From Polytrichum commune (Eukaryota > Streptophyta > Polytrichopsida > Polytrichales > Polytrichaceae), in NCBI GenBank assembly GCA_950295325.1, contig OX485809.1:26164001-26228000 (forward strand): a stretch of 64,000 nt of DNA, read 5' to 3'. Below the pieces are notes generated by a model that worked only from the letters and a program-made list of their open reading frames with translations, did no database searches and was not told the origin of the DNA. Positions 3,561 through 61,200 of the stretch are shown piece after piece (the stretch's first letter is position 1; every line of letters starts with the position of its first letter). A program made the position numbers and the translations under genes.

Positions 3561-3941
3561 CTATGGGCCTACCTTAGGTTTAGAAATAGAGATATGCATA
3601 CCATCAATTGCACCAACTACGGCCGGCAATCCACACATTAACGTAAAATCATTTTGAACTTGAAGAAGACGGGTACCGGTCGGCCAAGCAATTTCATGAC
3701 ATAACCCAATGTTAATAACACGACATGTATCATGTACCACACTTGAAACAGTTGAAGTGCCAATAGCAAATAATTTGGAACATAATCGCATATTAGCACC
3801 ATGTGCTAACTTCAAGAGTGTACATGCAACACGTACAACAACGGGAATTGCAAGGAGGTATCGAGTATTTTTTTTTTTTTGTATGAGAGGTCGTAGTTGG
3901 TTAGAGAGCTCAAAAACGGAGGCTTTGGTCATCCGGAACAT
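3561..3941 (-). pseudogene. PIF/Harbinger transposase fragment (DDE nuclease, N-terminal part)
   Basis: The minus-strand frame reads through FRMTKASVFELSNQLRP, then an RVACTLLKLAHG segment, then VVGAIDGMHI. These correspond to the start of the Harbinger-transposase-derived nuclease family: the FRMS...FEEL...LRP helix, the (V)A..L..LA.G motif, and the GAIDGTHI block that holds the first catalytic Asp. The frame ends about ten residues after GAIDGMHI, so the second Asp and the Glu of the DDE triad are missing. Upstream homologous-looking sequence is out of frame. A full nuclease of this family is roughly 350-400 residues, so this is a truncated, frame-broken relic. It could have shared a family with the Tourist-like MITE at 12.9-13.5 kb. 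Confidence 0.75.
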
Positions 3942-4051
3942 AGATGACCATCGTCGTACTCCTCAATCGCAAACCGGGAAAATCATGTTGTTGAGCGTGG
4001 CTTCACCCAAAACCCTAGTTTATGATCGCCTAGAGGAAGGTTGTTCCATAG

Positions 4052-4279: not shown

Positions 4280-7200
4280 TCATAAATATGGGAATTCCAA
4301 AATTCAAATTTTGTTTGATTGAGGTTACACCTTCCTCTTCATTCTAGTCTTGGACCTCACCCAATGCACGAGACCCACTTTTATGTAAGCAGAACCCACC
4401 CAACAATAAAAATTCCAAAATCATCATTTCATAAGCAAGGTGCTGCCACAAGACATTGCATTTGCTGCTTCAAGCTTACACCTTGTGGAGAACATGCGGC
4501 AATTCTTGCTTCCTTAAACTATGGCCCCAAATTCTAAACCTTGTTTCCGAACTCCAAACTACACTTCCACACACTTTGAAGCATGGTTGGACGACAAAAT
4601 CTTTTGCAATGAGAATTCCTCAATCAAGTAATTTCAAAATGTAGGAGGGCTACAGGAAGCTAACTCCACTGCTCCAACCAAAATAGTTTTTGAAGAGCAT
4701 GCTTATTGTTGTTATAATCTCAAACCCTTATGGTTGATTTTTAAACCCTGCTTCAGACATCTATACATCCAATCTAGGACAATTCGCAACACATTCACAA
4801 AAATTCACAGAGGTTGTGACGCCGAAATGCGATCCTCACTTTATACCATGTTTGTGTTTAGCTCACCTGGACTCCAAAATATGTTGCTCACTATTAGCCA
4901 GAGCAGCATGACGAATAGGATGTGTACACCAAAATTTGTAGTCACTTGGACCCTCAAATGTGCAGCTCTTTCTTAGCTAAACCTACGACTTGACTAGTCA
5001 CATGTGTATCAAAATGCTTGACCCAAATTAGGTTGGATTTGCAACCCTACTGAGGTTGTATACATGGGAATGCAACCTTGACATGCACTCTGAATGCGGG
5101 GCTTACTCTAAGCAAGAACAATGACCTGACTAGGATATGGACAACGAAAACAACTTGTGGAAATGCACAACTAATTACGAGCATCACAATCAACCGCCTG
5201 ACTAGTCAATTGGATTCTAAAATGCACAACTCACAAAACCCAACACCCAAAGAGGGTGAAAATCCATGAATTTTTGTTTCCGAAATCTCTGAAAAACGAT
5301 TGTCAGTGCCTTTGTTTTTGGTGATTTGGATTCAGAGTTCCGTTGGCCTCTCAATTTCCTACACACTTGAATGGCAGTTGAATAGACCGTTACATGCCTT
5401 CAACAAATGCGGGACGCAAGACTCTCCCCTCATTTTTATAGGCACAATTAAGAAGGTTGTTGCAGCAAGCCCAAAGGCTGGGACCATCCCCTTAAATTTA
5501 GCAACAGAATGAAGAAGATTAATAACAAAAGGCGTTAAGACCGACCTGGGTATCAGGCCACATGCTGCCATCCTTGCCAAACATGGTGGTAGACCCTAAT
5601 ACCCTATCACCACATATAACGTTGGGTTTTAGCTTTAAGACCCAGTCTTAGCTAAAGTCAGGTGGGAAAAGGGCATTAGTTCAACTATTTATAAATAATC
5701 AGTATAAAAAAATGATTTTTTAGTTGGTTACTTCAAACTTTTATATAAGTAAACTTATCAGTGTTAAAATTTTATAAAATAAAATATCTTGGCTTTATTT
5801 CATGTTTTTTTTGCTAATGACAAAAAACCTCTTTGTACTTATTATTAAGATTTTTTGAAATGACTATATTATTTATTTTCCAATGATTTATTTCTTTGCA
5901 TTATTTGTGGGAGACAATAATACGTAAAATTTACATATCAAATGCCATTGTTGTATACGTATAAGAGTAACTATGACATTATATATTATACAAATTATGA
6001 TGGAAGTAATATTTTGTTAGACTAAATGTACATGTTAAGAAATGCTTTTATCTCTTCGTTGGGTTTGATTTTAAAATATTGGACAATTTTTAATTCATAT
6101 TATTTCATAGTCACGTTCACTTTCACGATTTTGAAATTATACATTGAAATAATAATTTTTAAATTCTCCAAACTTCTCATTTTTATTAATAAAAATGTGC
6201 CATGATCATAGAATCTAAAGCATGTGACATGATCACAATGTATTAACTTGGCTATAATTCAATTTCGATGCATTAATATCATTTGGTAGACTCAATCATG
6301 TTTGGTGTAATTTAAAAATGTTTCCATAACATATGTCTATAAATAATTCACATTGGTACATATAACCAAAAATGTAAAAACATCATAGTAACATATATTG
6401 GCAAACAAAAAAAAATTATATGTTTTCATGTAATAAGATTATGTACATAAATTGACCACATCTCAATATTTTATATTTGTTAAGATGTTGATTTTTTGTT
6501 TAATTTTATTTCCAATTTAAAAAAATTTGGTATTACCTCCAGTTTTAATATACTATGTTAATATAATTTTGAAAAATGTATGTTGCAAAATCAAGGTCTT
6601 TGTGCAAAAGTTCTCATTGAGGTATTTGTTGGTATAAAATTTCATAAATCTTAGGACAAACATCTTGACAAAAAAATAATATATGAAAGTTTAAATTTTT
6701 TTCTATGTTTTAAAAAGCTTATGGAATGATTATTTATATTTGTGCAATACACTTGACAATGAAATCATTATTTTTATTATTTTATATTGTAAAAAAATTC
6801 ATGAATTGAAATATCAATATTCACTTTTATTTTTATTTTTTACATTCAATAGATTCCACTTTGAGATAAGTATTAAAACTAGTTGTTGAATCAAATTTTG
6901 TGCAATTCGCCTTTATTTTATGAACCAAAATATACCAAGTTATTTAGAATGTTGTTCATGACAAATTTATTTTCTCATATCCTTGTAGATGACAAATTTA
7001 AACAAATGCTAACCTAGGAGATATGAGTGTTTCTTCTAAATATATTGAAACATTCAACTGGTTTAATATATTGACTTTGATTTATATTTTATAATACTTA
7101 AATCTTATGTTTTTAAAGATAATATTTTTCAAATATAAATGTTTTCATTAATTGTACCAATTCAATATTAAAAACATTTTCCATTTGATTGAGCAAAACA

Positions 7201-27832: not shown

Positions 27833-29037
27833 AACACTCTATTTTTGGTGCACCTTACCACCTATAGTCCACCAAGTCATAGTGTGGGGACACTTAAATG
27901 CACTAGATATTTTTAATTAGTCATGTGGGAACCTAGGGGCTTGCCCTTGGGAGAGCTCAAGTGCAAGCCGGCTTGTCCATGCCCGTTCAAGGTGCCCATA
28001 CCTTTGAAAGGAGGTACTAGAATTCAAGGACCCTCTAATTGTTGTGGTGCACATATTGGGATAATATGGACTTGCGTGAACTCAAATATGAAGCAACATC
28101 ACAATTCACGCTGATGACAATTTCGGAGTCTATCAAGAAGGATCTATCATGGTTGATGATGGAACATTTACCTTCAACAAATTAGGGTTGCAACAATATT
28201 TTAATTTGGATGGATGAGAGGTACACTCGTGTGCAACAATTCCCCATGGCATGCATTTAAGGAATTGCAAAACTTTGATGGAAACTATAGATCATCCACT
28301 CTAGAACAGCAAGAACTTGGTTGACTGCATCTGCTTACAATTGTATGTATTGGCCTTGCACTATATTGAGTATTGAAAATTTACAGTGTTTCACATATTA
28401 ATAATGACTTGGCACTCAAAAAATATAATCAAATGACTTATATATACACATTCGTGTATATATACATTTTTGACTTCTAACATTTTCATTTTTATTTTGC
28501 AAATAATAACCTCCAGTGCAAACAGGTGAACTTATTTGGCACCTCTAAGTGGGAGTGTGAGGCAGTCAAGGACATAAGTGGATCATATGATTGTGTATAT
28601 ATATATATTCGTGCTAAAAATGTCAAGACTTCATCTTTGAAGTTGGAACTGTTCCATCTGTTGTCAAATTTTCACCTAAGATTTGCAAGTTCATACTCTA
28701 TAAGAATAGCAAAACCTCCACACTACACTGAATGAACTTCACATGTGCAGGCATATTAAGGGATTACAATGTAGGTTTTGCTCTACAATTTTTTAGGAAC
28801 ATCTTTGTAAGATATAGAATGAGCGTCAAAGAGGAAAATAGGACCAACCCCACTGTAACATCAGAGGAGCTTTGGAGACAGAGGAAAATGCATGGATCCA
28901 CCCAGGCAAAGACCATAGCTTTCTTGTTCCCAATGGGATGCAAATCAAAGTGGCCAGTTCATTGGGAAAAAGAGCCAATGACACGAAGTATATCAATGCC
29001 ATTGAAAATTAATGTCTAGTAAATGATGATGTTTAAC

Positions 29038-32000
29038 TTACACAGGACGCCACAAGCTCAGCTTGGAATGGTCCACAATGCGCTTGTTTTTCTTGCTAAT
29101 CAGCATCATATCTTCAAATTCTGCATCCCATATGATATCATCATCACATACACAGTAGTGTTGAACATGGAATACGGACTGCATTGATGACCTCTCCAGT
29201 CCAACCTGCATGCAATAAGTACTCAGCCATCAGTTCGTCTATTCATCAAGTTTTACCCTGAATAGGCAACAGATGTAATGACCACTTCCAAGAGAAATTA
29301 CACACTGGCAATCAGCATGGTATTACCTGCACTGACACAACTAAAGAAGGCACATGTATACAACAATACAAATATATGGATGATGGCAAGGAGGCTATCT
29401 AACAAAGAAAATGCATGGTTTACATACAACACTGAGTGTGAAGATGGCATCCTCGCGCCGTAACATCTCATGTGTCCTTCTGTAGAGTGGACTATTCTCA
29501 TCTATAATATGGCGCACCAGCATCCCTTGATTCAGATATGCAATCTCAGACCGAACCTGGCACACACATGATACAAAAGATAGTTAAAGAAAGCTGCATA
29601 TGTTCCAGATGCTGTCAAGTGCATCAAAAGCACACCATGAATCCTGTTATTACAAAGATTACAAAGTATACAAATACAAAATATTACATAGTATCAATGG
29701 GGCTGATGAAGAAATTACCAGCTTCAAAGATTGTGTGGCACGGAAGAAGGAGCCTGATCTTGTCAATGTGTTGTACTTATAAGTGAAGTCTACTTTCACA
29801 TCCACCAGTTCACAAGGCTGAGGTCCAGCCAGTACATATCGTGCCATTAAAACTCTGCACGGATAGACTACAATAAGAAACCTTCCAAAGACAAACCAAA
29901 CAAATGCTGTATTGAAAGAAAACCGATGTGCAGTCATCAAAGTCTAGTATATGTTATATGACTACATGAACACCAACAGTCAAGACTCGCAGATTGCACG
30001 CAAGTTAGACAAATCCTATCTCTAATTGAGAAGAATATATTAAAATTTGATATCCAGCAAAGAAAAACAAGATACAAAGTCTAGATGATCTAGTTTGGCT
30101 GCTTACTTGGTGGCAGAGTAGTCTACTCGTCGCCTGCGTTGAGCAAGAGATGGGCAGATTAATGCTACTTTTGAGCAACGCACTGGTTGTGAGGGTTGCG
30201 ATAGCCTTGCAAACACTGACCCACCGGAAAAGAAATGTCAGCAAAAATATTGTTGGTCTACGATACTTGAGTCTGCCTTTCTACTTGTGGATTTTGTGAC
30301 AGCACAACAAAAACATTGATGCTCCTTGATGTCAAGTCTGACCAACTGGAAGACCCTAGGTCTAACTTAGTTCATAACAGGTTGGTCTTATGACCAACCT
30401 GTGCTACTTTTAAGACACAGAAAGGCTAACAGCACATCAATTCATGTTGTAGAACGCTACAAAAACACAAACAAGTTACCTGCACCACTGAGGAAAACAA
30501 ATATCAGCTGTGCGATAAGTGCGTTGATGTTAGCAAGCACCAAGGTGTAAGGAGATAGAGGAGCCAACTCTGGCTGCAGACCAGTGGAAAGAGATAGGCT
30601 GAACATGAAAAGTTGGAACAATGTCATCCATGATAAAGTGAGTCCCCCCGTGGACACACCTCCTGATTAAGCACAAAAAACACCAAAAAGTTAGCAAGGC
30701 AACATGAATGTTATTAAGAATAACATGCACATCACAAATGCTTACCAATTAAATATGTCGTCAAATACATTGACAACAATCTCACGATATATGTGTGCTG
30801 AACTTTTCCAACACTGCCCAAGAAGTGCCTTGCCTAGGTGAAACTGAGTGTGTTGACATTAGTGAAGTTGGGGAATATCTGCTTATCAATTACTTAATGC
30901 TGCAGACACAGAAGGAACTCTAGCAATAGCACCTTAACAGACTGAAAGACTGAAGTGTATAGTCAACTAATGTAAAACAGTACATGACCATTCTAAATAT
31001 GTGACCATCTCATATACCCCTAAAAGACTTGCTCAAATTCAAATCAAGGAACTCAGCAAAGAAGAATGCTATACATAACAAGAGCTAGGATTGTACCAGT
31101 TTCAGAGTCAAAGAAACTGCGGGCTGTTTCATCCAAGGCAAGTCCTTGACAATCAGGTAAATACAAGAAAGTAAATACCACACTCAGTAACACAGGTGCT
31201 GCAAACATCCCACATGCAAATTGTGGCAGAGGTTTCTTGAGCATGTAGATGTAGAAATCATAGATCACAAAGAAAATTCCTTCATCTTCTTGCAGCACTT
31301 GGAAATTTTGAAGCCCACGCAAACCGCGAAACTCTGGAGAGTCTGAAGTCTTGAATGTCTCAAACTCATCATCACTGTCACTGTCTTCATCGTCGTTCGT
31401 AAGGAAGTCTACAAATGTGCTTGACATTTCAGCTGCCTTTGAGGAGACTTTGTTTGCAGTGGATTGAACTGATTCTGTAACTTGTGCTGCTGTTGACTGC
31501 ACAGACTCTGTAACTTCTGAAACAGTGGATGTTACAGATTCTGAAACGTGTGCTGCAGTGGATGAGACTGACTCTAACATCTGACTTGACACCTCTGACA
31601 TCTGCTCGGACACCTGGTCCACTTGAGATGACACCTGAGGAGTTGAACAACAGACACACTTAGAATGGTTCATCACAACATATATTACACAAAAGTCGCA
31701 ATGGCAGTACATGGGCGAACAAGAATATGGGTAGACCCATCTTGGTACCATAAGGAAATTACTAAGAATACCAAGTGTGTGAACACTACTCGAGACGTAG
31801 GTCCAAAACCTGCAAATTCTAAGTAATATACCACCAGGTAATCCTCAGATATTACTTTCTCACCACTGCATTGTTTTGGTTGCAGTCTGACCATGACAGC
31901 GGGGTCAACAACAACCAAAGTTTCAAAGTTGACACCTGAAGAACACTTCTGGTTTTAGTTCCCTTCCAACTACCATCATCAGTTCATCAATGGCAACACT

Positions 32001-35000
32001 CGAGGTACTCAAGGAACTCCACAAAAAAGCTAACCAAGTGATGACAGATTGACACTAGTGCACAAGAACTTTTCTAAACATTCTGCAATTCTAATGAAAA
32101 TGATCTCGCCTTACACACCAACCCTAAACAGAGCATATTATGTGTGGCAAGATTTGATCCAGTGGTGCACACAATTGGCACCTGCTGTTGGAGCCGATGG
32201 ATGGAGTTGTTATGATCTACCATTGAGTCCTGCATTCCGTCAGTAACCTGGTCCACTATATTCTGCCCTACTTGCTTGACCTGCCCTGCAACCCTTGACA
32301 TGCTTCCAGTAACTTGGGTTTTCAGGGTTGCTACCTGTTCCACTACGGCACCCACCTGCTCCACGACCTCATCTGGAAGGATCTCGGCAACAGGCTCCAC
32401 CACTTGTGATTTCAAAATTTGTGCAGTTTCTGCAACTACTTTAGTTGGAAGCTCTACAACTTTAGCAGGAAGTTCTGCTACCACTGCTGAAAGTTCACTT
32501 ACTGCTGAAATCTCAACCACCCTTGCTGAAATATCTGGAAGCTCAGCAACTTTGACTGGAAGCTCAGCTATTTTCGATGGAAGCTCCACCACTTTTGAAG
32601 GTAACTCGGCGACAAGTTTCAACGGAATTGGCAGCCGATCTGAGGCTTCAACAACTTGTACTTCAGAAATAGGAACAGGGGCAGAATCTTCAGAACAGCC
32701 TACAGACTCCGTGGCTAGCTGCAAGTTTGTTGCATCCCCTGGACGTTTTGTTCGTAGAAGCCAGGGGAGTTCTTCAAGAAGGTTGATCCCCTTTCTGGTC
32801 TGTTGTATGTGCCCATTACTATGATTCATGTCAAAATGTGAAGGATGAACAATAGTTGACACATCCTCCTGGAGATTATTTCTAAACCCATCATTTGTAG
32901 ATGCAGGAACTGCATAGCCTTGTACTTGTACAGGACGCTCAGCTTCCGAAATTGGAACACGAACGCACATTGTATCTGTCATTGAAGTATCATCTGAAAG
33001 TACTGCTATTGTCAATAAGCATACATATTCATACCCAGAGCACTCACAGAATCTAGATGGAACGATGATGAAAAATGTCTCAAATCAGTGATTAAAATAA
33101 TGTGCGATGACTACAAGATATTGACTATTAGACTAAATAATATCATGAATGCAATGTGGCAGAATCACACAACTTTATCTGGATGCAAAAACATAATCCC
33201 AAACTAGCCCTTAAAAATTACAGGTAGAAAGCACAACATTGTCTTGGTGGGTCTCCATACTTAGACGAGGAACGAACTGTGCAGCAAGATGAAGAGAGTT
33301 TCTGACACCTTGCTTAGTGAAAGTGACACAAAACCATGCAATGAATGTGTCTGGTAAAGACTTCCCTAAGATGCTAGCGAACTACTTGAATTGAATACAC
33401 ATGAAGCAAGAGAGTGCCCAGCTGTGGATTTGCATACGAAGAGTAAAGGGACTAAATAAAAATTGATATTCAAAACAACACATTAGAAAGACCTGTAATT
33501 CTGTAGACATCTCAAAGGTGCCAATTTTTTACCTTTAATGCTTGTACTTCGTCGCCTTCCAGATCCCATTGTCTTCTTGTCAAACGCCTTCAGCCTTGAC
33601 ATGGTTCTCCTCAGTTTCTCTTGACCAACATTGGAGTCCGAAGTAGATGTAAAATTCTCTTTAGAATCCGCAAATATTTCGGGGTTGGTGAGAATAGTTG
33701 CTGCAACAGGTGCAACTTCCTCTGGAAAAGACAATACAGGTGGAGGTTCCGAACCTGGCAGCTTCTTTTTCTTTCCCTTGCTGCTCCGCCGCTGCATTGA
33801 AGATTTGGCAGTTCCATTTTGTGCTCGATCTGCCTCTCCCTTACTTTCCACAACAGGAGCTACACCCTTGGAAAATTGTGAACCAGCTGGTCCACTACCA
33901 TTCTCCTTGTTGTTGATATTACTCAATTTTGTCGATATATTATTTGAATGGTCTTCAATATTGATACCACTATCCACAGCCACATTGGTGCCTGCAACTT
34001 TCAGGTTATGCTCTTCGTGTTCAGAGGTTAAGTTACAATAACTAAAGTTGTCCTGGTCAATGCCAGAATTTGCAACCACGGGCTTTCGACTTTGGTATCT
34101 GGCATTCTGACTGCCTGATCTGGAATTACCGGTGCTTTTGTCATGTAAGTCCTCAGCAACTCCTCCAGGATTATCATTGTGAGTAGGCCCTTCATTTTTG
34201 ACAATCAAGGAGCTTCCATGATCAAACATTTGGTTGTATTGCGTGGAGCTCTCATCTGTCCCATCAGAATGGTAGTCATCCGCCACAAAAACATCATTTA
34301 TTTCACAGCTGCTTGGTTCGCTTGGCATACTCTCCTTCTCAACATCATCCCCAAACGCTCCACGGACATTTGCAACATGGTTGTTCAGTTCTGCCTGAAG
34401 AAAATAACAAAAGTCAATAGAAATGACAAACTCGGCAATGTCACCTTAGCCAAATGAGACCTAGAATGTTGCCCAAGAATTGAAAACAATGTGCAGAGTT
34501 GAGTTGCTTGTTGGGCATACAAAGAAAAAGTACAGCTACATCTACAGCAGAATGGATAGATAATTTGCCATAAATTTATACTAATAGCATTCCAAATGAC
34601 CACAGTGCACATGGTACCGTAATCAGTAAAGATGCTTTCTTAGGAAGTAAATGCTGTAAGCCTTCGTATCTGCAGCTGAGCATTTCCCCAAAGTATAATG
34701 TATATAGTAAACACTTGCTTGTGTCTTACCAGCTCCTTTTCATCGTGCTCATCCTGTGTGATTTGAGAGGGAGTTCTCCTCCAAACTTTCTTTAATCTGC
34801 TACCATGGATGGCACCTGAGTATCTTCCAAGCCCTGCCTTGGCAACTAGCTTTCCTCCCGAAGCACCACCATCACGATGCCAAGTCTGCCATGTCCTACA
34901 AGAGCTCGCCCTACTCTGTTTCCATTTCATATAAGAACTAGACGTAAAGAAGCCACTACGGGCCTTGGTTTCTGAGGCTCCACTTGGTCTCACTAGGATT

Positions 35001-35017
35001 GAAGTCATGGACGACAT
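29038..35017 (-). CDS. Kir-like (inward-rectifier K+ channel family) membrane protein with long N-terminal extension
   Basis: Exons (minus, 5' to 3'): 34,730-35,017; 33,533-34,394; 32,182-33,002; 31,080-31,634; 30,746-30,833 (uncertain); 30,480-30,662; 30,107-30,215; 29,719-29,854; 29,428-29,556; 29,038-29,205 with TAA. Phases agree and give 1,112 aa (1,077 if the uncertain exon is skipped and exon 4 ends at 31,097). The C-terminal third follows Kir architecture. It has an amphipathic segment IYDFYIYMLKKPLPQF, TM1 (about residues 796-816) and a pore-loop-like segment. TM2 leads into the VFARLSQPSQP junction. The cytosolic Ig-like domain has LVDVKVDF, HIIDENSPL, DDDIIWDAEFEDM and a final IVDHSKL. 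The filter position reads MFSLSLSTGLQPELAPLSP, so TxGYG is absent. The N-terminal 790 residues are polar, with basic KGKKKK and ELPxKV heptads. Family membership is firm; K+ conduction is not. Confidence 0.85.
30746..30833 (-). other. Candidate 88-nt exon of the Kir-like gene
   Basis: It is flanked by a good acceptor (TTTCACCTAG) and a strong donor (ATTG/GTAAGC). If the previous exon uses CTT/GTTATG at 31,080, this segment joins in phase as ARHFLGSVGKVQ...YLTTYLIG, directly before GVSTGG of the pore exon. If the previous exon instead ends at ACTG/GTACAA (31,097), the segment is skipped and the frame is still intact. It therefore lengthens the TM1-pore linker, or is an alternative exon. Confidence 0.55.
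31430..31634 (-). repeat. Coding 11-residue-type repeats in the Kir-like protein
   Basis: The start of exon 4 encodes repeated S-x-V-x-x-T-A-A/V-x-x-V-T-E-S-V units (for example STAAHVSESV, STVSEVTESV, STAAQVTESV). The spacing is close to 11 residues, like the amphipathic repeats of LEA or apolipoprotein-type helices. The DNA repeats are visible but diverged. The repeats lie about 80 residues ahead of TM1 and could form a membrane-surface or self-association helix. Confidence 0.7.
32420..32625 (-). repeat. Coding ELPxKV heptad repeats in the Kir-like protein
   Basis: Exon 3 encodes consecutive 7-residue units of the form (A/V)ELPxKV: AELPSKV, VELPSKI, AELPVKV, AELPDIS, and further on AELPAKV and VELPTKV. 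The units run in tandem in two blocks, consistent with expansion by duplication. They precede a hydrophobic-heptad stretch (VVEQVGAVVEQV) that may form a coiled coil. Confidence 0.75.
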
Positions 35018-52243: not shown

Positions 52244-52985
52244 GTGAATCTCTTACATTCTGTCTGTGTTCATGCTATGACATTTATACACTCTTTCTCT
52301 GTCTCTCACTGTTGTGGCTCGTGGTGTATTCGTCGACTTTGGAGGTTGGAAGTAGTCTTTCCGGATGTCGGCTGCCAACAGTCTGCCCAAGACATGCATC
52401 TGAGGATCGGCTTTGCATCAGGACAGGTTTCGGCAGGGTTGGTTAGGTGGTGCTTGTTAATGGCGACCGATAGATATTACATTGGCATATCTGGATAATG
52501 TTGATTGCTTGGTATTCTTGTGATCAGCTTTGGTTGGATCAGTTCCTCTTTATGGATAGGCTTCAATTGATCGGTGGTTACGTCGACCACCACCAGAGAA
52601 TGGGTTGTTAGCCCGTCGTATACACACTCCAGATTGTGATTTGTACAATTTGGGGATCAATTTGTTGTTTCTTTCAGCAGGTTTATCGTAGGTTAATGTG
52701 TGCTGAACAAATTACTGTGGTCAAATGAGTCATTGGAGCCATGAAACAGCGACTCCTACATCGTAACTTATCGGCAACGTTCTTACTTTCATCACCCTGG
52801 AATTTGTGGTTGAATTTGATATGGTAGTATTGGCAGGAAACATAAGCTCTTCATAGTGAATTGGATAAGATATCATAATTAGTTTTTGCAACTTGATGCC
52901 TTACTGTCTTGGATGTACAATCGACGCTGTAGTTGGTGTGAGGCTTTGTTCTAACCATCTTCTTTTGTTGTTGAAAACAGTCGAC

Positions 52986-54428
52986 ATGGGGAAAATGCAG
53001 AAAGGGCGAGTTGCAGATCTTTCAAGGATACTGCAAAGAGTAACGGTTTCGTTGAACGATACTTTTGCGTTATTGAATGAGGCTGCACCTGCAGCTTCAG
53101 AAAAGGGAGATTGGGCACAAGTGAAGAAGGCTGCAGACCTTGTTTCAAAAAATGCAACCACTATAGGATTGTTATGGACACAAGGTGCTAAAGTTGATGA
53201 AGCTGGAGAGGCCATGAAGAACTTTGCCGACAGCTTGCAAGGTCTTCTCCTCCTCTGTCATGCTTGTACTGTTGGGGCAGGTCCCACTCTTTCCTCAACC
53301 ATTCGCAGTGCTGTGAAGCTTGTTCTGGAAGCAGGTCTGTCCCTCTTAATGCAGGCAGTTTCATTCTCTGTCAAGGGATCAGCAAGGGAGGAACGGGAGG
53401 GGGCCTTACCCTCTTTAGTTGGCTGTGTGTGGGAGTCTTGTAATGCTCTCAAGAAGACCCCATTCACAAATCGAGCTGCGATCGGACGCAGCCTGGCACA
53501 GGTTGCAACATCTGTAAAAGACGTTCTGCGAGAAATTGGGGAAATGCGAGAGGGTAGGGCTGTTGATCATGCAGATTGTGGCCATGGGCACTCCCATGAG
53601 GATGGGTCAGGCGCATGCAGCCATGGTCACGATCACAGTGCACACAGCCATCACCATGATCACTCTGGGCATGGTAATTGTGGACATGACCATGGTCAAG
53701 ACAATGATCATTCAGCACACCTTCACACACATGAGCATTCCGGGCATGGCCAATGCAGACATGATCACGGTGGACACCAGCACCATTCAAGTTCTAATAA
53801 CGCGAGCTATCAGCATTCTCACTCACACTCTGGACACAACCATTCCCAATGTGGCCATGATCATGGAAATCAAGGCCATGTGCACACCCATGGTCACAGT
53901 CATCAAAGCTGTGGACATGATCATAGTCATGCTGGGCATAGCCACTCACATGGGAATTCAAGTCATGCAAATTGTGGACATGACCACGGAAACACAGAGC
54001 ACGAGGATGGTTCCTCTTCTGTTGACAGCATGGAGTTCAACGAGGAGCTGTCACCGGAAGAGATGCAAGTTGTGGATGCAACAAAAGGAGTTGTTAATTC
54101 CCTTCTTGATTTCTTGAAGCAGTTGTTCTATGTAGCAGGGGATCCACAGCAAGGCGATGATGAGAATTCCACACTCTACTTAGAGAATGTGTTGAAGCAC
54201 TGCAAGAATTTGGGAGTTGAAGTTGATGAATTCGGAGCATCTCTTTATCCCCCTCAGGAGATCAAACAATTGAGTGACCTTATCACGAAAAGTGATGCAT
54301 TAGTGGAACAGATTAAAGATGAAGTGAAAGCAACCAAAGGTGCAGTACCTGAGGGCTTAGAAACCGCATCACAGGCTGTGATGACTGCAGAGACAACGCT
54401 GAAGCTGTGCATTTCTAGTCTGTCATGA
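52986..54428 (+). CDS. Cyclin-D1-binding protein 1 (CCNDBP1/GCIP) homologue with histidine-rich insert
   Basis: A 480-residue protein in a single coding exon. The start MGKMQKGRVADL follows the acceptor at 52,980 and resembles the MGK start of plant homologues. The all-helical GCIP fold is recognisable in two halves: residues 1-190 (KKAADLVSKNATTIGLLW; LLLLCHACTVGAGPTLSS; VWESCNALKKTP; AQVATSVKDVLREI) and residues 353-480 (LSPEEMQVV; GVEVDEFGASLYPPQE). In animals GCIP binds cyclin D1 and bHLH factors; the plant role is poorly defined. Between the halves, residues 195-340 are about one third histidine and contain seven C-x-H-x-H motifs, as in metal-binding loops of zinc transporters. Homologues I recall have only a short acidic linker here. 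The insert is in frame and the flanking domains are intact. Confidence 0.9.
   Translation: MGKMQKGRVADLSRILQRVTVSLNDTFALLNEAAPAASEKGDWAQVKKAADLVSKNATTIGLLWTQGAKVDEAGEAMKNFADSLQGLLLLCHACTVGAGPTLSSTIRSAVKLVLEAGLSLLMQAVSFSVKGSAREEREGALPSLVGCVWESCNALKKTPFTNRAAIGRSLAQVATSVKDVLREIGEMREGRAVDHADCGHGHSHEDGSGACSHGHDHSAHSHHHDHSGHGNCGHDHGQDNDHSAHLHTHEHSGHGQCRHDHGGHQHHSSSNNASYQHSHSHSGHNHSQCGHDHGNQGHVHTHGHSHQSCGHDHSHAGHSHSHGNSSHANCGHDHGNTEHEDGSSSVDSMEFNEELSPEEMQVVDATKGVVNSLLDFLKQLFYVAGDPQQGDDENSTLYLENVLKHCKNLGVEVDEFGASLYPPQEIKQLSDLITKSDALVEQIKDEVKATKGAVPEGLETASQAVMTAETTLKLCISSLS
53568..54005 (+). repeat. Coding His-rich repeat region of the GCIP homologue
   Basis: Degenerate tandem units built on GG(A/C)CATGA(C/T)CATGG encode CGHDHG-type motifs at residues 198, 211, 232, 257, 289, 309 and 330. 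The core CATGATCATG is near-palindromic, so the complementary strand also shows long open frames, which are by-products. Spacing between motifs is irregular (13-32 residues), indicating old expansion with drift. Confidence 0.8.
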
Positions 54429-56392: not shown

Positions 56393-59300
56393 TTAGTGCC
56401 ATCCACACACAGAGTCCAGGAAGGCCACCAAGCCTATGGAAATTGGGTAGAGAGCCAGACCAATGAATGCCATCCAGAGTGGGAAAGTGGTGCGAACCGC
56501 TGCAATTCCACCCATGATCAAAGTGGCAAAGAATACAACCAAGACCTCAGCTGAGAAGTCCCACACAAGGCCTCGCAGGTACACGATTGCCAGAAAGATG
56601 CCAAGGCACATCGTGTTTTTCATCGTCACCGCGCCATAAATCTGCATCACCGTAATCATGATGATCAGTTGACATTTGATAACAGTGACCAGTTACCATG
56701 CAAGTGCTGCAAGAAAAGAATACAGCGTTGCCAACTTCAAAGGAGCTAGTACAAGAATTCAGGACAAGTGCAGCAGAGGAATCGCATCCCTATCTGCCCA
56801 CAGTTTCATTGGGTTTGTCAACTCCTACAACCTTCTGGTCCCACTACACTAAACATTTGGTCTATGTGGCATAAAAATTGGTGTGCCATGTTAATTAGAG
56901 CGAACTTCATGATTTGTCATGTTGCCACCTGGTGATTGCAAAACAATTAATGTGGGCCAATGATGATTAGTGTGGGCCACACCAAAATCAGATGTTTAAT
57001 AAACCTCCCCACTGCTCACCTTGTACTCTAGGTAAACCCAAACATGTGGGATCAACCTTTAAGATACCCTGCAAAAACCTTAGAAACAAGACATTCCTAC
57101 ACGACCTGTTGCAATTCCTACATGGTAGCTACCAGTGTTGAACTGGTATCGACCCAAATAATAACTTGTGTACACCAAAATTCTCTCACCTTGACATTCC
57201 CAACAAATATCGATATTTGACTGGTATTTTAATTTTAATACCCATGGGTAGGTTCTTTGATACCATGCATTCACCTATATACCACACCAAGACTGGTAGC
57301 TACCCTATGAAACTAAGGGCAGGGAGATGAGATAGAATCCCCTGATCTGCAGCACTTTGCTGTCCTCATTCTCTTCCCTAATTCTTAACAAGCCGTTCCT
57401 ACGTTCAAGTAGACTTTGAAATTGGGTACAGGAACGTAGTGGACGAACCTGACAGTAAGACATCGAAATGTTGCGCCTACGTTTGCGTCTGGCAAACATG
57501 AGGGAGGAAATAGCTTCACTGGAGCTAGTGGCCAGAGGGGTGACGACAAAGGAGATGAAGAAGGGAGAAATGCCGGAAGTTTCCGAAAACCCGCTGATAG
57601 CACCCACCAGTGGGTCTGCAAAGAAAGCAGCCACTGCTCCACCAGCGATCAAGAAGAGGATAGCGTGTCCGATGATGCGAGATACAGAAGGGTTTTGTTC
57701 CCTTTCCTCATCTTCCACATCGTCAACCCTATCTTCCAACAAGGAAACCAAATCCGACTGCGCTGTCTGCAATGTCCACGAATCCATTTGTGTAAAAGAT
57801 TAAGCTTGAAAGTCGACATGTAGAGACAAGAAGACTGAATGGTCAATCTCCATTTCATTCATCAGTTTTTCGATTTGCTGAGAAAGGGATAAGCTGTGTA
57901 TGAATGATTTGAGTTCTCAGAACACTGCATTCGCGGAGAAACACTACTAAGCCTACCATCTCATCGTACATATGTAGATACCAGGGGGAGCAGTAAATTT
58001 TCCAGCCATAACATGACCTGTAGATGCACTAGATCACAGGATGATTGTAGGATTTGATGAGAATAGTACTTCCTTCAGCTATGGCATGGTCAAAAGTAGC
58101 AAACAGCTCGAGGCTAACCTGAGCCTCAGTATCCCAAATATGGGGCTGTGCAGAAGTGCCCAAATTGGAGCGTGGCGATTTTTTCTTGAAGCTTCTTGTA
58201 AAATTAATCCACTGTTCAATCCCGTGAAGAAATTCTTCCTTCGAAATCATTTTGTCATTGGATGTATCGAATTCCCGCATCCAGTGCGCCACTTCCTCTT
58301 CACCAGGAACTTGTCCGTTATGGCGCTCAATCCCTAACCCTACTATCAAATTTTTCAGTTCCTGCTCAGTAAGCATTCCGTCGTTGTTCGGGTCGAAATG
58401 ATCAAAGAGCCTGCACGTCAATCAGTCCAGTGCTCCGATTAGTGCGTTAGCATTGTCGTGCATCAATAACCATTCAAGCATTGAAACCCACAATCATGGA
58501 AGACATATGATGGATGGCGGCCAAGCCGGAAGAAATCTTTACCTCAGAAGTACATCCTTATCAGGTTTACCATCTGGACCAAAAATGCTTCCCCACTTTT
58601 GCTGCTGCGTCAGGAGAGAAAGTCTGTGAAGGGCATGAGTCCGTCTGTATCGATGAAGCGCCCAGTATATACGATTCTCTTGAATCCATGGAGACAAAAG
58701 CTGCAATGTGCAACCAAAAGACAAGGTGTGGGAATTTGAATATTGTACTGTAATAGCCGAGTGCAAACACGATCAATAAACTTGAATCTGATCGACAAGT
58801 GCATTGTACAACTTACGTCACGAGGCACAAAATTTCACAATGCGACCGGCCCACCTGGTACAAGCAGTAGCCTACGAGGCTTCCAATGGCAATAACCGCT
58901 GCAATCAAAATACACAGGTTTCCCGCTGTCTGCAAGCCCAACACGCGAGGACCTTGTGCGATAATGTAGGGAGAAAGGGTGCCCATCATGATCCATGCTG
59001 CCCACTTAGTCTCATTGATGGTTGTAACTCCAGTTTCTATTCAACCCACAAACAGAAACAATCAATCCCAGCCACCTTAATCAATGATGTTCCAGAAGCA
59101 ACATTGGGGGATCTTCCAGAAACCTAACTTCAGATGACTCAATTATCATAGTGATAAAGTTTCAAGGCTACTGCAATGCGAGGATGAGTCGGTCCACAAG
59201 CAGAAACACTCCATCCCAGCCACCTCAAGCAATGATATTCCAAAAGCAGCATTTGGGGACCTTCCAGAAACCTAACTTCAGGTGACTCAATCATCATAAC

Positions 59301-59840
59301 CATAAGTTTCAAGGCTAATGCAATGAGAGGGTGAGTCAATCCACAAATAGAAACAATCAATCCCAGCCACATTAATCAATGATGTTCTAGAAGCAGCAAT
59401 GGGGGATCTTCCAGAAACCTAACTTCAGATGACTCAAGTATCATAGTGGTAAAGTTTCAAGGCTACTGCAATACGAGGAATTAGTCAATGCAGGCAACCA
59501 TGAGCACGTGGACCAAGAACAGCAAAACACAAGTGGACAAGTCGATGTTCTACGAACCTGAAAGATGGAACCCTTTGGTCAGTGTGCGATCCATGGCCAC
59601 AAGCTTGTTCGACCGCGGTCTCGACACAAGATCACATCGGCCCACAATCAAGCACGAACCCCACAGTGCAGTGAGCACCATCACTGTCGACCCAGCCACC
59701 AAACCCATGCCCACAAGCACTTGCTCCTGCGCTGCTGCCTGGGTGGCGGCTCCCAATCCCGAAGCTACATATCGGAAACAGAGAATGGTTCAAAATGGTT
59801 GATTAGTGGAAGACCCTCCTTTGCTTCCAGTTACACCTTC

Positions 59841-59874
<34 letters not shown>

Positions 59875-60777
59875 TAGGGCAGTGACTCGAATTGACCACA
59901 TGACTCAGGTGTGAGGCCGGGCACTAAAATCTTCCAGGCGAAGATGAATTTTAGGGTTTTTATTTCTGTGTGGATAGACCAATGCTCTGTCAAGTGATCC
60001 AATCCATTAGTTGCCATTACCCATCGATCCTCATCATATCGTGAAAGGTTCTTTTCAAACCAGAGATGCAACGGCGGCCGCAAGAAGGCTACTGTAGACT
60101 GGCTGCACCTAACAGGGTTTCGAATTGGCCCGAAGGTTGTACTAAGTATCATTATCCTCCATTAAAACTCTGTAATCTACACCTGCCGCCCTTCAAAGCA
60201 TGCATCGCAACAAGCAAACGTGCAACCATTCATCTCTTCACGACAACTATACTGGAAATAGAGTCACTCTTGCTCTTGGTTTCTTGCTACTCGGTTCCCC
60301 TAATGCTTATAGCCACTCTTGCTGGTAGGGCAGTGCTCGGAGAAGTTCCAGAATTTTGATCAAAAGTAGATAGATAGGTGCATACATACCCGCTATAAGA
60401 AGCGCATCCGGAAAGGCCCCCAGAATGGGCAGCACGAGGCCACCAATGATCCCCGGGCTCATCACCGTCAAGAGCAACTCACTCCCTTCCGTCAACAGCT
60501 GGGCAGCCTTGAGGAAGGCATAGCTGTACATGAGCAGAAGCGCCGCGTTCCCCCCCAACTTTGCCGAGCATGGCATGAACCCATAGGGCTCCTCGCAGCT
60601 ACTCATTTGCTCAGAGCTCCTCCTCCCCACCACCGATTGGATCCCCATCAAATCCTCCATCCCCGTCATACTCTTTGCTTCCTCTAGGCTTGCTGCCACG
60701 CCATGCCCATGTAGGAGCACGCCAACTCCCAACAGCAGCAACACCCATCCTAACGGGCTGCAGCTCTTAAGATTCAT
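56393..60777 (-). CDS. NCL: NCL-type Na+/Ca2+ exchanger (EF-hand cation exchanger), 7 exons
   Basis: Exons (minus): 60,390-60,777; 59,558-59,764; 58,855-59,036; 58,543-58,700; 58,119-58,410; 57,449-57,766; 56,393-56,641, with all phases consistent; 597 aa against roughly 580-590 for plant NCL. NCL proteins move Ca2+ against Na+ across plant membranes and affect salt and calcium balance. The chosen ATG gives a signal-like hydrophobic N-terminus (WVLLLLGVGVLL). Exons 1-2 carry CEEPYGFMPCS and the first alpha repeat (GSELLL...GIIGGLVLPILGAFPDALLIA). Exon 5 carries two EF hands, DPNNDGMLTEQE and DTSNDKMISKEE, both with good loop residues. Exon 6 has the second alpha repeat (ADPLVGAISGFS...FFISFVVTPLATSSSEAISSL). 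Exon 7 ends with LYPISIGLV and a GW-type C-terminus. No damage is seen. Confidence 0.95.
56870..57010. repeat. Repeat-derived segment in NCL intron 6
   Basis: Motifs such as TTAATGTGGGCCA and TTAGTGTGGGCCACA repeat within the intron and resemble the GTGGGCCACA motifs inside the CACTA-like MITE at 40.1-40.4 kb. Ends cannot be defined. Confidence 0.35.
59046..59487 (+). repeat. Three-unit tandem repeat, period 147-148, in NCL intron 2
   Basis: Units start with CCACAA(A/G) at 59,046, 59,194 and 59,341. They share AATCCCAGCCAC or CATCCCAGCCAC, GATCTTCCAGAAACCTAACT and GTTTCAAGGCTA in the same order. Identity is about 85% by eye. The array begins ten nucleotides from the acceptor of exon 3 and fills most of the 521-nt intron. 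Confidence 0.9.
59844..59871 (+). repeat. CT/AG microsatellite in NCL intron 1
   Basis: About 14 uninterrupted CT units. On the transcribed strand this is an AG run, roughly 80 nt upstream of the exon 2 acceptor region. Confidence 0.9.
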
Positions 60778-60833
60778 GGTCAAACCTCCAGCTGGCTCCA
60801 ACTCTCTCTGCCTGCTTTCTCCTCTACACTCCG

Positions 60834-61200
60834 AGCTCACTCATATATATATTACCGAATGCTACAATACATCCAACTTTGGTCCGACTACTTTGATGAT
60901 GTTGTAGCAGATGTGATGAAGCGATGTTGGAGGCTTGGAAGTTGGCCCGTCTCTCTCCCTCTGCCTGCTCCGAGCTCACTCACATATTATGTACCGGTTG
61001 CTACAATACATGCAACTTTGTACCGACTACCCTGATGATGTAGTAGCAGTTGTAACTTGTGATGAAGTGGTGGTGGAGGCTTGGCCTGCCTCCCTCTCCT
61101 CTGCAGTTCGAGATCACTCACATATTAACGTACCGAATGCAATGATACATGCAACTTTGGATCCGACTACTCACTCTGGAGTCTGATGATGTAGTAAGTT
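60834..61200 (-). promoter_or_regulatory. Tandemly triplicated promoter region of the NCL gene
   Basis: Three diverged copies of a 138-139-nt unit begin at 60,834, 60,973 and 61,111 with AG(C/A)TCACTCA(C/T)ATAT, then TACAATACAT or TGATACATGC, CAACTTTG, CGACTAC and TGATGATGT. The copy nearest the gene carries TATATATAT (60,844-60,853), a good TATA box about 65-75 nt upstream of the start codon at 60,777. The outer copies have CATATTATG or CATATTAAC at the same place. Transcription probably starts near 60,815-60,825. Confidence 0.7.

Follow-up and report, generated by a model that had tools for sequence, protein, structure and literature searches.

A predicted Kir-fold gene of Polytrichum commune with a P-loop that lacks the TxGYG potassium filter

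Described systems and the position of the locus among them

HKT, Trk and Ktr transporters carry four TM-P-TM units, with four P-loops, in a single chain. The bacterial channels KirBac3.1 and KirBac1.1 are built from a slide helix, TM1-P-TM2, a VFAR.S.P-type junction and a cytosolic domain, and the slide helix of KirBac1.1 is described, in the part of the source consulted, as acting in lipid-dependent gating (PMC12599233). The plant "Kir-like" protein KCO3 arose, according to the sections of its description at hand, from TPK channels and is known only from Arabidopsis; the mutant is rescued even by a KCO3 whose pore is inactive, indicating a role independent of K+ transport (PMC3694395). Plant HKT proteins are typed by the residues S-S-M or [T,S,I]-G-L in the first filter, as stated in excerpts of the Selaginella channel inventory, the completeness of which was checked by a GYG scan and the excerpts of which contain no word beginning with Kir (PMC3410407). 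In the available portion of another paper Kir is named only to avoid confusion (PMC4565715). None of the matches listed in the literature searched dealt with IRK_C proteins of land plants, and a Kir family with TIGYGG and both Pfam Kir domains is absent from the lists in those parts of the plant reviews that were examined. The remark of the first-pass annotation that Kir-type proteins are rarely discussed in land plants fits this literature, in which, as far as the excerpts go, the plant "Kir-like" protein is the TPK-derived KCO3.

The locus described here lies in a window of 64,000 nucleotides, the whole stretch of DNA that was analysed (assembly GCA_950295325.1, contig OX485809.1, positions 26,164,001 to 26,228,000). 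The predicted protein has two TM helices and one P-loop, as has KCO3 in the excerpted description, from which it differs by its Kir cytosolic domain. Unlike HKT, it has a single P-loop in the model, together with a cytosolic domain of the Kir type, and the four-unit architecture of HKT, Trk and Ktr is not present. All four structural elements of KirBac3.1 and KirBac1.1 listed above were recognized; the differences from KirBac are the lack of TxGYG, the presence of introns, a long N-terminal repeat region and about 8-10 residues inserted in the early part of the cytosolic domain. Kir topology and the cytosolic domain are also held in common with the eukaryotic channels Kir6.2 and Kir2.2 and with a canonical Kir gene of the same plant genome. 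The filter reads TIGFG in Kir6.2 and TIGYG in the canonical plant gene, whereas the window protein is without TxG[YF]G.

Gene model and Kir homology

The window gene was modelled with nine exons on the minus strand, encoding 1,065 residues before the stop codon, and every intron is of the GT-AG type (Table 1). The splice sites were deduced from motifs, frame and homology; the start codon is provisional, and the model allows for an upstream 5' exon. The interval from which this study started is exactly one exon, with AG before it and GT after it; it keeps the frame of its GT-AG neighbours, and its translation is ...LSWMTLFQLFMFSLSLSTGLQPELAPLSPYTLVLANINALIAQLIFVFLSGA. The slide helix, TM1, P-loop, TM2 and Kir cytosolic domain are encoded by the last six exons. 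The last 82 residues of exon A are 67% identical to the paralogue on contig C1, the acceptor of exon 3 may be placed at 33005, 33002 or 32993 (all in frame), and the open reading frame of exon 2 gave no Pfam match at E 1.

Table 1. Exons of the window gene, in the order of transcription (positions in the window)
Feature	Position	Strand	Content
Exon 1 (model)	34730..35017	-	Start ATG at 35017 or 35008; Ser/Thr/Arg-rich, acid-poor N-terminus
Exon 2 (model)	33533..34394	-	Long, of biased composition; AG before, GT after, frame kept
Exon 3 (model)	32221..33005	-	First part of the 7- and 11-residue repeats
Exon A	31097..31634	-	Remaining repeats, slide helix (FFVIYDFYIYMLKKPLPQF), TM1
Exon B	30480..30662	-	Pore helix, P-loop STGLQPELAPLSP instead of TxGYG, TM2; interval first annotated
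Exon C	30107..30215	-	VFARLSQPSQP junction, start of the cytosolic domain
Exon D	29719..29854	-	Cytosolic domain
Exon E	29428..29556	-	Cytosolic domain with HIIDENSPL; donor GTATGT
Exon F	29036..29205	-	End of the cytosolic domain and stop codon

The cytosolic model IRK_C (PF17655) matched the spliced protein with 29.6 bits, against a cut-off of 22.5, over residues 305-415 of a 420-aa query, and the transmembrane model IRK (PF01007) gave no match to it at E 0.1. The proposed Pfam check therefore held for the cytosolic domain and failed for the transmembrane model. Searched exon by exon, the gene yielded one Kir match only, a weak one to IRK_C (16.5 bits) from the open reading frame with exon E alone, and a genome search with PF01007 at E 10, a kind of search that intron-split genes can escape, gave none at this locus. 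Among PDB sequences the best match of the spliced protein was KirBac3.1 (E 1.7e-13), animal Kir2.2 followed at E 0.006, and the 34 distinct sequences at E <= 1 were all Kir or KirBac. A profile of four paralogues matched KirBac3.1 at 1.2e-14 and 34 PDB sequences at E <= 0.1, all of them Kir or KirBac, including one chimera. Against a KirBac profile of 33 rows (32 loci and one PDB fragment) the window protein scored 109.9 bits, aligned over profile positions 38-300, its paralogues 109.7, 92.4 and 88.5, the canonical plant Kir 190.3 and Kir6.2 170.0 bits. Slide helix, TM1, pore helix and TM2 follow one another in this order in the KirBac-profile alignment and in the multiple alignment with its hydropathy peaks.

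The scores with IRK_C, KirBac3.1 and the KirBac profile, together with the same anatomy in three paralogues, argue that the match is not due to chance, and the predicted window protein is regarded as a homologue of Kir channels by descent. The annotation had called it a Kir-family homologue without a K+ selectivity filter, and the IRK_C match and the absence of TxGYG from the sense frames agree with this; both motifs that it quoted were also recovered, VFARLSQPSQP as the product of the splice junction after exon B and HIIDENSPL within exon E. The protein is not placed among the Kir K+ channels: the filter, one of the features that define them, was looked for and is not there.

The region ahead of the channel-like part is unusual in composition. 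The first 60 residues contain 2 D+E, 10 K+R and 18 S+T, and this Arg/Ser-rich N-terminus would suit, as a guess from composition, an organelle (plastid or mitochondrial) transit peptide. A stretch of 212 residues ahead of the slide helix is self-similar at lags of 7 (z 9.3) and 11 residues (z 4.6; 500 shuffles); it is devoid of Cys and Trp and rich in Val, Ser, Glu and Ala. The underlying DNA has tandem repeats with periods of 33 and 21 bases, those of period 21 in exon 3 being located at 32428-32485 and 32535-32586. Apolipoprotein matches of the repeats (Pfam E 0.0003 and 0.0012) were far under the cut-off of 90 bits; an apolipoprotein identity was rejected, and the matches are taken as a sign of putative amphipathic repeats only. 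The paralogue on contig C1 retains a similar repeat region (a 37-residue match to exon 3, E 3e-5), and open frames upstream of the paralogues on contigs C2 and C5 hold the slide-helix-like sequences LQDFYVACLK and MQDSYVACLK.

Elsewhere in the window, a GCIP (Grap2 and cyclin-D-interacting) family protein is encoded at 52869-54428 (+), with the His-rich segment GHDHSHAGHSHSH between its N- and C-terminal domains. Open reading frames matching a Na+/Ca2+-exchanger (57305-57799) and an EF-hand protein (58029-58421) occur within 57305-60840 (-) and are probably exons of one protein; tandem arrays with periods of 147 (59041-59489) and 139 (60818-61170) were found near them. At 3561-3962 (-) there is a fragment with a weak match to a DDE transposase helix-turn-helix (E 0.0018, below the curated cut-off). 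Rfam gave no matches within the window at the gathering threshold.

The P-loop in the window gene, its paralogues and bacterial relatives

In place of the TxG[YF]G filter the window protein reads STGLQP. The statement of the first-pass annotation that no other frame encodes a GYG was confirmed by scans of all three sense frames between exon A (31634) and the stop codon (29036), introns included, in which neither G[YF]G nor T/S..G[YFL]G occurs, and by the lack of G[YFLVIM]G on either strand of 29000-31700. A hidden filter exon is ruled out by the sense-frame scans for this part of the window gene and its introns.

In the genome, which comprises 408 Mb on 64 contigs, a protein search found 26 matches at E <= 10, six of them at the window gene and six at each of three paralogues, at C1:47749066-47751331, C2:19035148-19037370 and C5:43750357-43752883. 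Two other matches were a weak one to the canonical Kir gene, C2:27065236-27065874 (E 0.15), and one on contig C4 (E 3.4). The three paralogues have the anatomy of the window gene and likewise are without TxGYG. Homology guided the drawing of their models, which have GT-AG introns throughout; the two introns that flank exon C, one at SGA|V (phase 1) and one preceding exon D (phase 2), are common to all four models, and the others differ in position. In the spans scanned, the sense frames of the C1 and C5 paralogues contain no G[YF]G, and those of the C2 paralogue contain two, at positions 3857 and 6834 of L014, both out of the model frame and far from the P-loop exon (5097-5218). Family-pattern searches for further relatives confirmed none in genome_contigs (106 pattern stretches) and none in viral_contigs (115 stretches).

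The P-loop shared by the window gene and its C1 paralogue is SLSLSTGLQPELAPLSPY, and that of the C2 and C5 paralogues is LSLSTTFGGSPV. The residues L-S-L-S-T, G, P and S-P are common to all four, with one invariant glycine, and the family signature is L-S-L-S-T-x(0-2)-G-x-x-P-x(4-5)-S-P. In the alignment the KirBac sequence TIGYG falls over T-GLQ in the first pair and over TFGGS in the second. Gap placement decides whether the window sequence is read as T-GLQ or TGLQP, and GYG is found in neither. Based on the predicted protein, K+ selection by a GYG cage would, we infer, be impossible. As far as the model goes, the locus is an intact land-plant gene of several exons, and a conserved P-loop without GYG stands in the place of the K+ filter.

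The canonical Kir gene on contig C2 is an intronless open reading frame with TIGYGG (IRK 56.5 bits, IRK_C 84.7 bits; Kir6.2 at E 9.7e-37) and was the sole match over the cut-off in genome searches with PF17655 and PF01007; it corresponds to L001 988-2520 (-), matching C2:27065218-27066108, and has a His run in the C-terminal tail. The window protein is very distant from it (22% identity). Whether the filter loss is shared among homologues had been raised at the outset, and within this one genome, the source of all four filterless sequences, it is: four paralogues have lost the filter and a fifth, canonical gene keeps it. Since a TIGYG Kir is present, the loss is not general to the Kir genes of this genome. 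The number of five Kir-like genes is a lower bound, because intron-split genes escape Pfam genome searches.

Four LEAFY SAM-domain matches over the cut-off, in keeping with a land plant or a near relative, were found in duplicate on contigs C1 and C7, two on each, and these contigs also carry the window gene and its closest paralogue; the pattern may go back to an ancient duplication of this chromosome pair.

Thirty-three bacterial KirBac loci were chosen by a DNA pattern at the TM2 junction, independently of the filter. Their filters were T[IV]GYG in 29, AVGYG in one and TIGSN in two, and one locus (L043) was too short to read, so that GYG is kept in 30 of the 32 readable loci. In a second sample, 150 genomes from the order to which the genome of L049 belongs, IRK_C was found in 14; L056 and L058 were unreadable by the filter motif, and GYG was present in 11 of the 12 readable, the remaining one being the gene of L049 again. 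Judged by these predicted proteins, filter loss is rare among the sampled bacterial relatives. The two genes with TIGSN for TIGYG (L041 and L049, from Acidobacteriales MAGs) are related to each other and intact in the rest of their Kir anatomy; theirs appears as a separate, bacterial change of the filter.

Origin, constraint and possible roles

Two trees, of 39 and 40 rows, unite the four filterless genes in one group with support of 100/100 and place the canonical plant gene with Kir6.2. On one side, the split between the window and C1 genes and the C2 and C5 genes has weaker support (89/68 and 94/76). A very long branch leads to the filterless group in both trees (2.8-3.2 changes per column); the canonical gene and Kir6.2 are long branches too, and their grouping carries a long-branch warning. 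Odd composition was flagged for the C1 and C2 paralogues in the tree of 40 rows. Descent as a simple duplicate of the canonical Kir gene was considered: the trees give it no support, but a single clade of filterless genes, canonical gene and Kir6.2 is not rejected by the AU test (p 0.32). A cyanobacterial origin was considered also; the Synechocystis KirBac (L052), the placement of which is weakly supported, does not adjoin the family in the tree. The family may be of bacterial, plastid or ancient eukaryotic origin.

Omega was calculated from Nei-Gojobori counts. For the window-C1 pair (319 codons, 217 identical residues, pS 0.726, pN 0.193) it was about 0.09, a rough value as synonymous sites are near saturation, and for the C2-C5 pair (293 codons, 240 identical, dS 1.10, dN 0.12) it was 0.11; in comparisons between the two types, the synonymous sites of the entire region are saturated. 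These counts indicate that both predicted pairs are under purifying selection. The most conserved of four regions in the window-C1 pair is the pore helix plus loop, with 24 of 26 residues identical (pS 0.97) against 193 of 293 elsewhere (Fisher p 0.004, uncorrected, one of four regions); the corresponding figures are 21/31 for TM1, 27/33 for TM2 and 104/168 for the cytosolic domain. The C2-C5 pair is not enriched in this region (22/27 against 218/266 elsewhere, p 1.0). Between the window gene and the C2 paralogue 12 of 25 residues are identical in the pore helix plus loop and 23 of 33 in TM2.

Most likely, the gene encodes a Kir-fold membrane protein without K+ selection. A Kir-like tetramer would form in which K+ is not selected, and there is about an even chance that it conducts no K+ and serves as a sensor, a scaffold or a regulatory subunit. 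Lipid or a ligand would then be sensed by the slide helix and the cytosolic domain, and the long 7/11-residue repeats that precede TM1 would lie on a membrane or bind partners. This proposal is supported by the Kir homology, the lack of a hidden filter exon, the four filterless paralogues with their shared P-loop residues and the observed constraint, by the rarity of filter loss in bacterial relatives and the TIGYG Kir in the same genome, and, within what the excerpts report, by the precedents of KCO3 (PMC3694395) and of the KirBac1.1 slide helix (PMC12599233). Against it stand the preferential conservation of the pore helix and loop in the window-C1 pair, for which a purely non-conducting protein has no obvious need, the lack of pore-region enrichment in C2-C5, the derivation of all four sequences from one genome, and the invariant P-loop glycine, as found in some other cation transporters. 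That the filter has simply decayed in a pseudogene, or that the gene model misses a filter exon, is hardly credible: although the models rest on splice motifs and homology, all four have open frames and GT-AG joins and share the positions and phases of two introns, both omega values are low, and no GYG is in frame near a P-loop. Decay in particular is made unlikely by the near-identity of the window and C1 pore helix and P-loop at near-saturated synonymous sites.

The main rival is a Kir tetramer with an open P-loop that would conduct with another selectivity, passing Na+, Na+ and K+, or divalent cations. In its favour are the constraint on the window-C1 pore region and the one invariant glycine per subunit, and the S-T-G-L of the window protein recalls the [T,S,I]-G-L of the HKT first filter (PMC3410407, in the part consulted). 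Such a pore is rather unlikely; against it, the B-type loop has no acidic residue, the A-type loop has three prolines, the two types differ in loop length and sequence, as the low window-C2 identity there reflects, and the likeness to HKT comes down to the letters T-G-L. A more elaborate version, also unlikely, is a land-plant Kir-fold family in which a new P-loop under selection, with one or two glycines (STGLQP or TTFGGSP), took the place of GYG. It would form a cation pore with a novel selectivity, such as permeability to Na+, and this pore would be coupled to long, membrane-lying amphipathic repeats. It seems quite improbable that the protein is a modulatory subunit which forms heterotetramers with the TIGYG Kir of this genome and silences or tunes it; both kinds of gene occur in one genome, their cytosolic domains belong to the same Pfam family and the AU test accommodates their common clade with Kir6.2, but the two proteins are very distant and stand apart in both trees.

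A GYG scan such as that described in the consulted part of the Selaginella inventory misses filterless Kir-fold genes by design (PMC3410407). The genome analysed here combines a TIGYG Kir homologue with at least four Kir-fold genes predicted to be without the filter. If their loop conducts, the family would be a test of the tolerance of the Kir fold for another filter; if it does not, the family would be a natural example of a channel fold retained for a function other than that of a channel.
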